Source of the DNA: Anaerolineales bacterium | Lineage (GTDB): Bacteria > Chloroflexota > Anaerolineae > Anaerolineales > UBA11579 | Length of the DNA stretch: 64,000 nucleotides | Direction of reading: 5' to 3' | NCBI GenBank assembly: GCA_021463845.1 | Contig: JAJTXV010000004.1 | Span: 124,001-188,000, forward strand | Shown here: piece after piece, positions 42,128-53,272 of the stretch | How positions within the stretch are numbered: position 1 is the first letter of the stretch | Layout: every line of letters starts with the position of its first letter | Notes under the pieces: model-generated | What the model was told of the DNA's origin: nothing | Databases searched by the model: none | The model's input: only the letters and a program-made list of their open reading frames with translations | Translations under genes and position numbers: made by a program

Positions 42128-42157
42128 TTGACGCAGAAAGCGCTGCTGGTGTACACT
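42128..42157 (+). promoter_or_regulatory. Promoter of the leader ORF/GNAT unit
   Basis: TTGACG (42128-42133), an 18-nt spacer and TACACT (42152-42157): one of the two best -35/-10 pairs in the window. The transcript should begin near 42164, placing GGAG 15 nt before the short leader ORF start. Confidence 0.7.
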
Positions 42158-42178
42158 GCCGCAAGTTAGGAGACAGGC

Positions 42179-42277
42179 GTGAAATTCCTCTTCACTCCCA
42201 TTGACCCCAAGCAGACCTCGGCTTCCAAGGCCGGTGGTTCTTCCCTGCCTTGGCGTAGTGCGCCTGTTTCCGGCTAG
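42179..42277 (+). CDS. Short leader ORF (32 residues) ahead of a GNAT gene
   Basis: A GTG-initiated frame with TTAGGAGAC upstream encodes 32 residues, starting MKFLFTPIDPKQ and ending SSLPWRSAPVSG before TAG. It begins about 15 nt into the predicted transcript, as leader peptides do. Two intrinsic terminators follow before the GNAT gene, so it looks like the sensing element of an attenuator. It could instead be an independent micropeptide with its own terminators. One Trp and four Pro codons are present, but there is no run of a single amino-acid codon that would identify a ligand. Confidence 0.55.
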   Translation: MKFLFTPIDPKQTSASKAGGSSLPWRSAPVSG

Positions 42278-42298
42278 CAGTCTCATCTTTGATGGAAC

Positions 42299-42330
42299 GG
42301 CCGCACGGCGCACAGCCCTGCGGCCTTTTT
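42299..42330 (+). terminator. Terminator 1 of the GNAT leader
   Basis: GGCCGCA (42299-42305) pairs with TGCGGCC (42319-42325), followed by TTTTTGTTT. Its 3' arm can instead pair with the 5' arm of terminator 2: CCTGCGG at 42317-42323 with CCGCAGG at 42339-42345. Confidence 0.65.
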
Positions 42331-42334
42331 GTTT

Positions 42335-42370
42335 AAGACCGCAGGCAGTTCCCTGCGGTCTTTTTTTTTT
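42335..42370 (+). terminator. Terminator 2 of the GNAT leader
   Basis: AAGACCGCAGG (42335-42345) and its perfect complement at 42352-42362 enclose a 6-nt loop and lead into a tract of ten T. It is a textbook strong intrinsic terminator, only 24 nt before the GNAT start codon, so expression of that gene requires readthrough or antitermination. Confidence 0.85.
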
Positions 42371-42393
42371 GCAATATTTTTTAGGAGAAGAAA

Positions 42394-43410
42394 ATGGCTA
42401 CACAAGAATTTGAAGGCTATGTACTGCGGCCAGTAGTGGTTGAAGATGTGAATGCAGTGACCAGTGTGATCAACCAGTTTTCCAAGATCTTCGCCGGTTT
42501 GGAAGAAGAAGCCGCTGAAGAGGTGCTGGGTTTCTGGAAGACGCCTGGTATTGACCTGGAACAGGATATGCGCGCCATCATTTCGCCCACTGGTGAAATG
42601 GTTGGTTACGCCGAAGCCCTGGCCTGGAATGAAGTGCCGGTCAATCCGTATATCTTTCAGCGAATAGTGCCGGAATTGGTAGGCAGCCCGGCGCAAGCCA
42701 TGCTGCTGGATTGGGCGGTGGAGCGTTGCAAGGACGCGTTGGCACGCGTACCCGAAGAACTGCGCGTGGCGATCGGGCTGCATGCCATTGCCGGCATTGA
42801 AGCCCAGCATGACCTACTGATCTCGCGCGGCTTCAAAGTCACCCGCCATGTCTTCGAAATGGGCATTGACTTTGAAAGCGAACCTAACGGCGTGACCTGG
42901 CCAGAAGGCATCCTACTGCGCCCCTTTGAAGTGGAGCGCGACTTGGCTGCTGTTTACAAGGCGCATGACGAGGCTTTCTCTGACCACTTTGGCCATGTGG
43001 ACGAGGGCTTTGAGGCCGGGCTTAAGCGCTTCCGCCACCTGATGGTGGAGGACGGCTCCGAGTTTGACCCCAGCCTTTGGTTCGTCGCCATGCATGGCGA
43101 TGAAGTGGCAGGCTACCTGGTGGGCCGCAAGAAGCCGCATGGCGCGGGCCATCTGGGTTGGATCAGCATACTGGGCGTGCGCCGCCCATGGCGCAAGCAC
43201 GGCCTGGGGTTGGCCCTGCTCCAGCACGCCTTTGGCGCGTTCTACGAGCGCCGCTGGATGCGCGCCGAACTGGACGTGGATGCCGGCAGCCTTACAGGCG
43301 CCGTGCGCCTGTATGAGCGGGCCGGCATGCGCGAAGTGCGCCGCCATGACCGCTACGAAAAAGAGTTGAGACCAGGGAAGGAGTTGATGACCACCGACAT
43401 AAGCAACTAG
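42394..43410 (+). CDS. Two-domain GNAT acetyltransferase behind an attenuator-like leader
   Basis: Protein of 338 residues with tandem GNAT-like halves. The C-terminal half (from GILLRPFEVERDLAAVYKA) is complete, with GWISILGVRRPWRKHGLGLALL as the acetyl-CoA loop and NA-like GSLTGAVRLYERAGMREVRR. The N-terminal half is more degenerate. The architecture resembles mycothiol synthase-like tandem GNATs, but the acceptor is unknown. TTAGGAGAAG gives a strong ribosome site. No promoter fits between the upstream terminator and the ATG, so it should be expressed only from the leader promoter through the terminators. Confidence 0.85.
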   Translation: MATQEFEGYVLRPVVVEDVNAVTSVINQFSKIFAGLEEEAAEEVLGFWKTPGIDLEQDMRAIISPTGEMVGYAEALAWNEVPVNPYIFQRIVPELVGSPAQAMLLDWAVERCKDALARVPEELRVAIGLHAIAGIEAQHDLLISRGFKVTRHVFEMGIDFESEPNGVTWPEGILLRPFEVERDLAAVYKAHDEAFSDHFGHVDEGFEAGLKRFRHLMVEDGSEFDPSLWFVAMHGDEVAGYLVGRKKPHGAGHLGWISILGVRRPWRKHGLGLALLQHAFGAFYERRWMRAELDVDAGSLTGAVRLYERAGMREVRRHDRYEKELRPGKELMTTDISN

Positions 43411-43428: not shown

Positions 43429-43462
43429 ACAACAGCGCCGGCGAATGCCGGCGCTGTTGTTT
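43429..43462 (+). terminator. Intrinsic terminator after the GNAT gene
   Basis: Perfect 14-bp arms, 43429-43442 (ACAACAGCGCCGGC) and 43447-43460, with loop GAAT, followed by TT. It ends the GNAT unit 18 nt past its stop. Confidence 0.8.
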
Positions 43463-43472
43463 AAGGGGCCGT

Positions 43473-43478
43473 TATACT
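43473..43478 (+). promoter_or_regulatory. TATACT -10 box of the aldo/keto reductase gene
   Basis: TATACT lies 23 nt before the ATG and just past the terminator; GAAGGAGA supplies a strong ribosome site. Confidence 0.45.
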
Positions 43479-43501
43479 TGCCCTGGAGAAGGAGATCCAT
43501 C

Positions 43502-44473
43502 ATGCAATACCGAAAATTCGGCAAACACAACCTGAACGTTAGCGAGATCGGTCATGGCCTATGGGGTATGGGCGGCTGGACCGACGCGGATGACAAACAA
43601 TCCATGGCAGCTCTGGAGCGCTCGCTGGAGCTGGGCTGCAACTTCTTTGATACTGCGTGGGCTTATGGCTCAGGGCATAGCGAGCGGCTGCTGGGCCAGC
43701 TGATCCGCAACCACCCGGACACTGAGATCATCGTGGCCACCAAAGTGCCGCCCAAGAACGGCAAATGGCCCGCCGACCCTGCCGACAAACTGCAGGATGC
43801 ATTCCCCGCCCAGCACATCATTGATCTCACAAAGCGCAGCATTGAGAACCTGGGCACTGATAGCGTGCACCTGCAGCAATTGCATGTGTGGGATGACGCC
43901 TGGGCGTCTGACCCGGAGTGGATCGAAGCAGCCCAGCGATTGAAAGACGAAGGACTGATCAAGTTCTTCGGCCTGAGCTTGAACCGCTGGGAGCCGTGGA
44001 ATGGCCTCAAAGCCATACGCACCGGCGCCGTAGATGCGGTGCAAGTGATCTACAACATCTTTGACCAGGCGCCCGAAGACGAGTTGTTTCCGCTGTGCGA
44101 GGAAATGGGTGTTGGAGTACTGGCACGCGTGCCGCTGGATGAAGGTGGTTTGAGCGGAAAGCTGACGCTTGACACCAAGTTCCCAGAAGATGACTGGCGC
44201 TCCGGCTACTTTGGCCCTGAGAACTTGAAACCGACTGTCGAACGGGCCGAAGCGCTCAAAGCCCTGTTGCCGGCGGACATGTCTCTGCCAGAGTTGGCGC
44301 TGCGCTTCGTTCTGGCGCACCCGGCAGTCAGCACGACCATCCCAGGGATGCGCAAGCTGGAGCATGTTGAGCAGAACATTGCGCTTAGCGACGGCCAGGC
44401 GCTGCCCGCTGAGCTGATCGAACAGCTCAGAACACACCGCTGGGACCGCAAGGTAGCGCCTTGGTCTGATTAG
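43502..44473 (+). CDS. Aldo/keto reductase
   Basis: NADPH-dependent TIM-barrel oxidoreductase of 323 residues. The catalytic tetrad is visible: Asp and Tyr in FFDTAWAYGSGHSE, Lys in VATKVPP and His in LQQLHVWDD. The cofactor-binding C-terminal part STTIPGMRKLEHVEQNI is typical. The ATG at 43502 has GGAGA upstream. Its stop overlaps the stop of the convergent DM13 gene by 4 nt. Likely substrates are small aldehydes or sugar-like carbonyls, not determinable here. Confidence 0.93.
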   Translation: MQYRKFGKHNLNVSEIGHGLWGMGGWTDADDKQSMAALERSLELGCNFFDTAWAYGSGHSERLLGQLIRNHPDTEIIVATKVPPKNGKWPADPADKLQDAFPAQHIIDLTKRSIENLGTDSVHLQQLHVWDDAWASDPEWIEAAQRLKDEGLIKFFGLSLNRWEPWNGLKAIRTGAVDAVQVIYNIFDQAPEDELFPLCEEMGVGVLARVPLDEGGLSGKLTLDTKFPEDDWRSGYFGPENLKPTVERAEALKALLPADMSLPELALRFVLAHPAVSTTIPGMRKLEHVEQNIALSDGQALPAELIEQLRTHRWDRKVAPWSD

Positions 44474-47656: not shown

Positions 47657-47776
47657 CCCTTGGCAATGACCTACTCTCCCAGGGGGCTGCCCCCCAAGTA
47701 CCATCGGCGCTAACGAGCTTAACTACCGGGTTCGAGATGGGACCGGGTGTACCCTCGTTGCAGAGATCACCAAGAG
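47657..47776 (-). rRNA. rrf: 5S ribosomal RNA
   Basis: About 120 nt on the minus strand. The ends CTTGGTGATC and CATTGCCAAG pair, and the internal words CCCATCTCGAACCCGG and GGGAGAGTAGGTC are conserved 5S landmarks. It is the last gene of the operon. Ends are accurate to a few nt. Confidence 0.92.
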
Positions 47777-47827
47777 ACTATTTCACAAGTCTGATGACTG
47801 AATAATGACCCTATTTAGGTACTGCAC

Positions 47828-47852
47828 GGAAAATCTTCGAGTTCTCCACACT

Positions 47853-47855
<3 letters not shown>
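47828..47855 (-). other. 3' arm of the 23S rRNA processing stem
   Basis: This 28-nt stretch next to the 23S 3' end is complementary at 25 of 28 positions to 50829-50856 next to the 23S 5' end. In the precursor they form the long duplex normally cut by RNase III. A second, outer pairing is possible between CTGAATAATGA near 47797 and TCATTATTCAG near 50960. Confidence 0.75.
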
Positions 47856-50824
<2,969 letters not shown>

Positions 50825-51313
50825 ATATGGTAATGTGGAGAAATCGAAAATTTTCCGCAACAAGGGCAAATCAAACCGAAACGTTCCCGCAAGGGAGCGT
50901 TTTACGTTTGATACGACCCATGTTGTTTGATTTGTTTCATTTGATGATGCTTTAAGGATCATTATTCAGTTTGTAAAGTGCACACGAGCGTTGTTCTGCT
51001 CGCCTTAGGCTTGCCCTGCGATGCTTGATCGCAAGACGCACCCGCTGATGCCGGCGTCAATAGCCGGCCTGGATCCCCATTTAAGGGCGCCAGGCTGGCC
51101 ATTCACACACACTTTCACTTGTTAACTCGGGAACCTTAGACAGAAGGGCCCGGCGCAACGCCGGGCCCGTAAAGACTAGCCTTTTGCGTTACGACTTTTT
51201 ATTTGGATTACGAAACCACCAACTCAACTACCAGAAGTGCTCTCCGTTCTTGTTGCATCGAACTGCATTATACCTGCACCGCCTCCGATTGTGAAGGCGC
51301 CCCACCAGAAGAG
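50825..51313 (-). other. tRNA-Ala to 23S spacer (489 nt)
   Basis: Transcribed spacer with no gene. Next to 23S is the 5' arm of its processing stem (50829-50856). A hairpin ACGCTCCC/GGGAGCGT-type pair surrounds 50881-50905, and CGGCGCAACGCCGGGCC near 51151 is another GC-rich fold. AT-rich stretches alternate with short GC hairpins, as usual for rRNA spacers. Confidence 0.7.
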
Positions 51314-51386
<73 letters not shown>

Positions 51387-51405
51387 GGGCCCCTGGCCGG
51401 TAGAG

Positions 51406-51479
51406 TGGGCCTGAGAGGATTCGAACCTCTGACCTCTGCGTTATCAGCACAGCGCTCTAACCAACTGAGCTACAGGCCC
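51406..51479 (-). tRNA. tRNA-Ile (GAT)
   Basis: 74 nt on the minus strand. Acceptor GGGCCTG pairs with CAGGCCC, D arm GCTC, anticodon GAT in the loop CTGATAA, T loop GGTTCGAATCC. CCA is not encoded. It lies 19 nt before tRNA-Ala in the direction of transcription, the classic rRNA-spacer pair. Confidence 0.95.
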
Positions 51480-51763
51480 TTGCGCAACTGGCAGCAAGCT
51501 GCTTCGTTGCGCCTGGAAAAGCTGCTCAGCTGTCGCTTCGCGACGCTTTTCCGCGCTGTTTAGTATGGCCGGCACTTAACCGCTGAATAGTGATAAGAAG
51601 AATGAAGACTTGCGCTTGCCAACCCATCTGTGAGAAGTATGGGTTGGCGGTTTCGCCCCACCACCGCAGTGGGACTTGGCGTCACATAATATGTGTTCGC
51701 CTGATGTGGAGAGTGGAGAACTCCCTCTGCACCACAAGGATGCTGGAGGGGTCTCAATGCTCC
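51480..51763 (-). other. 16S to tRNA-Ile spacer with the 3' arm of the 16S processing stem
   Basis: 284 nt of transcribed spacer. CTGAATAGTGATAAGAAG at 51583-51600 is perfectly complementary to 53342-53359 in the 16S leader, giving an 18-bp precursor stem around 16S. No gene is visible. Confidence 0.75.

Positions 51764-53272
<1,509 letters not shown>

Follow-up and report, generated by a model that had tools for sequence, protein, structure and literature searches.

A putative ribosome-sensing transcription attenuator upstream of a GNAT gene and its leader family in Anaerolineae-type Chloroflexota

Architecture of the leader

The leader preceding a GNAT-family gene in the window (the whole 64,000-nucleotide stretch of Anaerolineales DNA analysed here, contained in a 2.3-Mb draft genome) is probably a transcription attenuator of the trp/vmlR type that responds to a ribosome detained at the start codon of a small leader ORF. 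Four segments would compose the switch. The ORF's own ribosome site, A, would act as segment 1 and the end of the ORF, B, as segment 2; C/c and c′, which belong to terminator 1, would serve as segments 3 and 4.

All elements of the leader lie on the plus strand. A sigma-70-type promoter (TTGACG-18-TACACT) occupies positions 42128–42157; a single site of this kind in 1.8 kb is near the chance level (0.8 expected), but it is conserved in sister species (leaders L003, L005, L006 and L007). The leader ORF (42179–42277) has a GTG start, 32 codons, a TAG stop at 42275–42277 and the Shine–Dalgarno (SD) sequence AGGAG. Segment A (GGAGACAGGCG, 42169–42179) runs from this SD to the start codon and finds its partner at 42261–42271, forming the anti-antiterminator, while segment B (core GTAGTGCGCCT, 42255–42265) lies at the end of the ORF and can pair with either A or C. 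Terminator 1 (c:c′, 42299–42325) is followed by TTTTT and encloses segment C (GGCGCAC, 42307–42313), whose partner GTGCGCC at 42258–42264 completes the antiterminator. Its 3′ arm c′ (CCTGCGG, 42317–42323) is also able to pair with d (CCGCAGG, 42339–42345), the 5′ arm of terminator 2 (d:d′, 42335–42362), from which a T tract extends to about 42370. The putative regulated gene (42394–43410, ATG at 42394) encodes a 338-residue GNAT-family protein and is followed about 35 nt further 3′ by an aldo/keto reductase gene (43445–44473), a possible second gene of the operon that may be co-transcribed with it. A complete rRNA operon (16S, two tRNAs, 23S, 5S) lies on the minus strand at 47658–53271, approximately 5 kb downstream of the leader.

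An earlier note on this DNA had placed the promoter, the 32-codon ORF with its ribosome site, the two terminators and the GNAT ATG at these same positions. Its proposal of a trp-type attenuator is well supported by the covariation described below, but its segment scheme missed both A and C.

Occurrence and conservation of the RNA family

The leader is not confined to the window. The earlier note would have been refuted by relatives with the GNAT gene and no leader; a covariance model built on the core and terminator 1 (R1) instead matches eight of ten sister genomes of the genus and, at E ≤ 1e-3, 276 of the 400 genomes sampled in the order, spanning 99 of 130 genera. Up to six copies per genome are present in nine genomes rescanned at higher sensitivity. 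In other orders of the class, approximately 105 of about 280 sampled genomes (about a third) carry the leader, and beyond the class there are only six matches, all weak; the sampled genomes are apparently mostly draft or metagenome-assembled. The 21-base core pattern of the family matched 22 contigs, nearly all titled Chloroflexi/Chloroflexota, Anaerolineae or Anaerolineales. L064 and L065 were rejected as chance matches to the core pattern; the leader set leaves out L109, L110 and L117 as non-members, L110 being the second R1 match in the window's own genome. Against Rfam, the leader region gave nothing at the gathering cut-off, the best sub-threshold match having an E-value of 0.02.

Within the genus, where the GNAT relatives are 45–88% identical, the order of promoter, small ORF, core CTGCCTTSGCGTAKTGCGCC, two terminators and GNAT is repeated in L003–L008 and L011, with the core altered by one or two bases in L006 and L007. 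The core pattern alone recovers the layout in other genera and families (L056–L061, L062 and L063). Across the 139 leaders examined, the consensus of segment A is AGGCGCAC after GAAAGG, that of segment B is GKAnTGCGCCT near the end of the ORF, and that of segment C is GGCGCACTCC, located in the upper 5′ arm and loop of terminator 1. Terminator 1 is present in 138 of these leaders and a further hairpin in 109; some leaders lack terminator 2. An SD-preceded ORF predicted to be translated runs through the core in 127 of the 139.

Covariation of mutually exclusive pairings

Pairing statistics were computed on 120 non-redundant leaders, all from the order, by comparing each segment's own partner with swapped partners over 2000 permutations. 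All three alternative pairings show strong covariation, with z = −10.0 for A:B, −12.9 for B:C and −10.1 for c′:d, and none of the 2000 permutations reached these values in any of the three cases. The signals persist when swaps stay within the same downstream-gene class (z = −8.9 for c′:d) and when each leader is compared with its five most similar leaders, and the control pairs early-ORF:B and A:C show no covariation in the same 120 leaders. When A and C were anchored without using their partner, two-sided compensated cells numbered 47 against 26.6 ± 4.1 for A:B and 60 against 21.6 ± 3.9 for B:C. The antiterminator B:C, which is exclusive with terminator 1, and the anti-antiterminator A:B, whose segment A lies within the footprint of an initiating ribosome, are thus both supported by covariation.

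Individual leaders illustrate the compensation. Specifically, L107 carries GGCACAC in A, GTGTGCC in B and GGCACAC in C; L103 and L157 combine GGCGCG in A with CGCGCC in B; L122 combines GCGCGCC in B with GGCGCGC in C; and L056 has the core GTAGTGCGCC with the C segment GGTGCGCTAC, where other leaders have GGAGTGCGCC with GGTGCGCTCC.

Scanning 496 window pairs without bias across the 120 leaders places the terminator stems, c′:d, B:C and A:B at the top, outranked only by two numerical artefacts in windows with no possible duplex. The 1–2 and 3–4 stems of the earlier note correspond to terminators 1 and 2, both of them in this top group, and its 2–3 pairing is the conserved c′:d, which thereby withstands the refuting condition that the note had set. 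The additional pairing that it drew between AAGGCCG (42227–42233) and CGGCCTT (42321–42327) exists in the window but is not outstanding in the scan and was rejected as not conserved.

These pairings bear on the explanation that the transcript is an ordinary small RNA or leader ending in two tandem terminators, with GNAT expressed from a weak promoter of its own after terminator 2. Terminators often occur in tandem, and positions 42360–42385 are AT-rich; however, the exclusive pairings co-vary, the leader and a resistance-type gene are syntenic across families, and only about 24 nt separate the T tract of terminator 2 from the GNAT ATG, so that this explanation is highly improbable.

Folding of the leader and proposed mechanism

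At equilibrium, terminator 1 (mean −21 kcal/mol) outcompetes B:C (−16.6 kcal/mol). The equilibrium fold of the whole leader, in which terminator 1 always wins, was dropped in favour of an intermediate in which C is transcribed and c′ is not yet transcribed, a treatment that ignores ribosome sterics and kinetics. Because terminator 1 is the more stable structure, the outcome must be decided by kinetics while the RNA is being transcribed, which is also the accepted view of other attenuators. In this intermediate, B:C is predicted in 118 of 120 leaders when a ribosome sits on the start codon and in 3 of 120 when it sits at the stop. Without a ribosome, the equilibrium model is ambiguous across the family, with A:B in 43 and B:C in 81 of the 120. 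For the window leader the three states are clearly distinct: A:B (7 bp) is predicted without a ribosome, B:C (9 bp) when one occupies the start codon, and neither pairing when it has reached the stop.

The proposed order of events combines these states. Without a loaded ribosome, A would pair with B and terminator 1 would fold, keeping the gene off. A ribosome translating normally to the stop codon would mask B, and terminator 1 would again fold. A ribosome stalled at the start codon or within the first few codons would instead mask A and leave B free when C is transcribed, allowing B:C to form and disrupt terminator 1; the released c′ would then pair with d and disrupt terminator 2, turning the gene on. 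The c′:d pairing would thereby function as a relay, since occupation of C by B would free c′ to disarm the second terminator. Because the switch would read the position of the ribosome and not the peptide, it should respond to arrest shortly after initiation; candidate inducers are drugs or stresses that stop ribosomes at this stage, and readthrough would raise expression of GNAT together with the aldo/keto reductase. The earlier note had regarded it as a weak point that a ribosome on the stop codon would not cover segment 1; this difficulty is removed because a stop-codon ribosome would mask B and a start-codon ribosome would mask A.

A related explanation, in which the leader is a general sensor of slow translation like that of bmrB and responds to ribosomes slowed anywhere in the ORF, would be consistent with the family-wide folding, where B:C is still predicted in 50–75% of leaders with a ribosome at codons 5–19. 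We consider it unlikely, however, as A:B is kept by covariation and overlaps the SD, and the modelled on-state of the window leader, with strong B:C, is limited to P-site codons 0–4.

Conservation of the leader ORF at the RNA level

The ORF is retained in position and not as a peptide. Wherever an SD precedes the ORF (127 leaders), the stop codon falls 12–29 nt past the start of B, and what is kept is an ORF ending just past B. The core is crossed in frame 2 in 110 of the 139 leaders (LPxRSAPVDR, mostly LPxRxAP) and in frame 1 in 24 (ALSECAC, ALSYCACCP). Among the frame-2 leaders, GCG encodes the core Ala in 99 of 99 and CCT the last core Pro in 95 of 98, yet both codons are rare in the remainder of these ORFs, where GCG makes up 11 of 209 Ala codons and CCT 10 of 59 Pro codons. 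Outside the core, no peptide conservation is present across the family ORFs. Nor was a common run of codons for one amino acid, as expected of an amino-acid biosynthesis attenuator, seen among the 139 ORFs, and segment 1 coincides with the SD.

These observations bear directly on nascent-peptide stalling, in which a C-terminal LP(S/W/C)RSAP motif would arrest the ribosome together with a drug or metabolite, as in ErmC-leader, MsrD-leader or RAPP-like systems, and the RNA switch would follow. The predominance of LPxRxAP in frame, and its superficial likeness to RAPP/RAGP arrest motifs, would agree with such arrest. The use of two reading frames together with the fixed third bases of the Ala and Pro codons nevertheless makes a peptide stalling motif very unlikely, and LPxRxAP arrest was rejected on the reading frames; moreover, a ribosome arrested at the motif would mask B and should favour termination. 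The core is accordingly judged from its sequence to be kept as RNA. A classical drug-plus-nascent-peptide stalling leader is thus not supported, and the peptide conservation for which the earlier note proposed to look is not present in the family outside the core: the conserved part is RNA.

Strong nucleotide-level conservation of the core could alternatively reflect a metabolite riboswitch or a protein-binding leader, to whose function the ORF would be incidental. This is exceedingly improbable given an SD-preceded ORF through the core in most leaders with every stop at the spacing above, A:B and B:C pairing that accounts for much of the conserved core, and the lack of a matching Rfam family. 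A resemblance of CGTAGTGCG to an ops/RfaH-like pause element was considered by eye only; such an element was set aside as not needed, since pairing explains most of the conserved positions, although a transcriptional pause at B may occur.

Comparison with known attenuators

One comparable system is the E. coli trp attenuator, which follows a 1:2, 2:3, 3:4 logic and has its stop codon sited so that a terminating ribosome favours termination. The Chloroflexota leader shares both the pairing logic and the stop-codon placement; unlike trp, its segment 1 is the ribosome site, and it lacks regulatory codons for a sensed amino acid.

By analogy, the leader most likely works like the vmlR, bmrCD and hflXr attenuators. 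In Bacillus subtilis vmlR, lincomycin and retapamulin stall initiating ribosomes and release an ABC-F gene, induction requires the start codon and SD of the uORF, and the leader combines an anti-antiterminator, an antiterminator, an intrinsic terminator and a uORF as here (PMC9226507). The vmlR uORF has three codons within a local hairpin (PMC9226507), whereas the Chloroflexota leader ORF usually has 25–35 codons. In further contrast to vmlR, the Chloroflexota anti-antiterminator brings the SD together with the end of the ORF, c′:d links in a second terminator, and the leaders constitute one family before many gene types across the class; the comparison of the two systems is one of design. The B. 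subtilis bmrB–bmrCD leader also contains an ORF with predicted terminator, antiterminator and anti-antiterminator, and ribosome-targeting drugs induce its ABC exporter; it differs in having the terminator inside bmrB, and that study did not settle what the anti-antiterminator does (PMC4191407). Listeria rli80-hflXr shares a short uORF overlapping the anti-antiterminator and shows lincomycin-dependent readthrough with mutations tested, but its uORF encodes 14 residues with an RLR motif, and one locus in one species was studied (PMC6310831). The E. coli toiL–topAI uORF reads several classes of ribosome-directed drugs, with tetracycline stalling ribosomes at the start codon, and differs in acting on translation and Rho-dependent termination instead of an intrinsic terminator (PMC12121999). 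The pairing of segment 1 with the end of a longer ORF, frame independence, the terminator relay and the use of one family for many gene types distinguish the Chloroflexota leader from vmlR, bmrCD and hflXr.

Genes downstream of the leaders

The first long ORF behind each leader was taken as the downstream gene and assigned by BLAST to representatives. Approximately 123 genes were assigned, comprising 35 GNATs, 34 DrrA-like ABC ATPases, 25 MsbA-like or other ABC exporters, 13 members of an unnamed family, 11 ABC-F proteins, 3 RIO-type kinases and 2 RsgA-like proteins; one MFS transporter and one methyltransferase occur besides these. Two ABC-F proteins were searched, and both score above the NCBIfam cut-off for ribosomal protection-like ABC-F. 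Judged by these assignments, the set is what one would expect to find behind a sensor of ribosome-directed drugs, and the ABC-F and efflux genes behind sister leaders strengthen the reading that the window leader may sense translation stress.

It may further be, as a tentative reading, that a single general sensor of start-codon-held ribosomes, independent of the peptide, serves Anaerolineae-type Chloroflexota, present in one to six copies per genome and heading a stress and resistance regulon of ABC-F proteins, ABC and MFS exporters, GNATs, RsgA, a RIO-type kinase and the unnamed family. If so, any gene behind the leader, the window GNAT included, would be a candidate antibiotic or translation-stress factor. 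Most known ribosome-sensing attenuators come from Bacillota, mostly as single cases; the present leaders form a large family, supported by covariation, in a phylum for which the open-access literature searched describes no such family. Because segment 1 is the ribosome site of the leader itself, sensing of initiation-stalled ribosomes becomes directly testable, and the covariance model could serve as a finder of as yet unknown resistance-type genes in a mostly uncultured lineage.

Operon context varies among the leaders. An ABC exporter lies downstream of L063, and L062 precedes a gene adjoining a GNAT. In sister families (L056–L061 and L133), the leader heads an operon with a DrrA-like ABC ATPase and GNATs further down; its position directly before GNAT in the window genus suggests loss of the transporter genes. 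RsgA-like ribosome-assembly GTPases (L107, L121) and RIO-type kinases (L112, L116, L122) also stand behind this leader type, which suggests a wider translation-stress regulon.

The unnamed family, of approximately 150–200 residues (alignment A4), is found behind L123, L124, L132, L143, L147, L148, L164, L167, L168, L179, L181, L208 and L211. Its pattern YxD...RPAYxxLxxDxxxGxFxxV recalls resolvases by eye; two members searched against Pfam and NCBIfam gave no match, nor did the family profile against the PDB.

Four leaders before ABC-F genes (L100, L106, L111 and L204) are without segment A. Their leader ORF begins a few nucleotides after a TATAAT box and is thus leaderless, and they have an N-terminal motif in common, IGVRGF in three of the four. 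These may represent a different sub-type that senses differently.

The non-member L110 (1501–2334; G000:C12:331564, in the window's own genome) and L109 (G007) contain apparently leaderless, Tyr-rich mini-ORFs, MAKPVTSAYTYLYYAETTPAALPCALLED and MAKHTVSVYAYYYAETTPAALPCVLLED, respectively. The mini-ORF and a strong terminator are immediately followed by a gene for a biopterin-dependent aromatic amino acid hydroxylase (PF00351, E 7.6e-43), and the element looks like a tyrosine-codon attenuator of phenylalanine hydroxylase.
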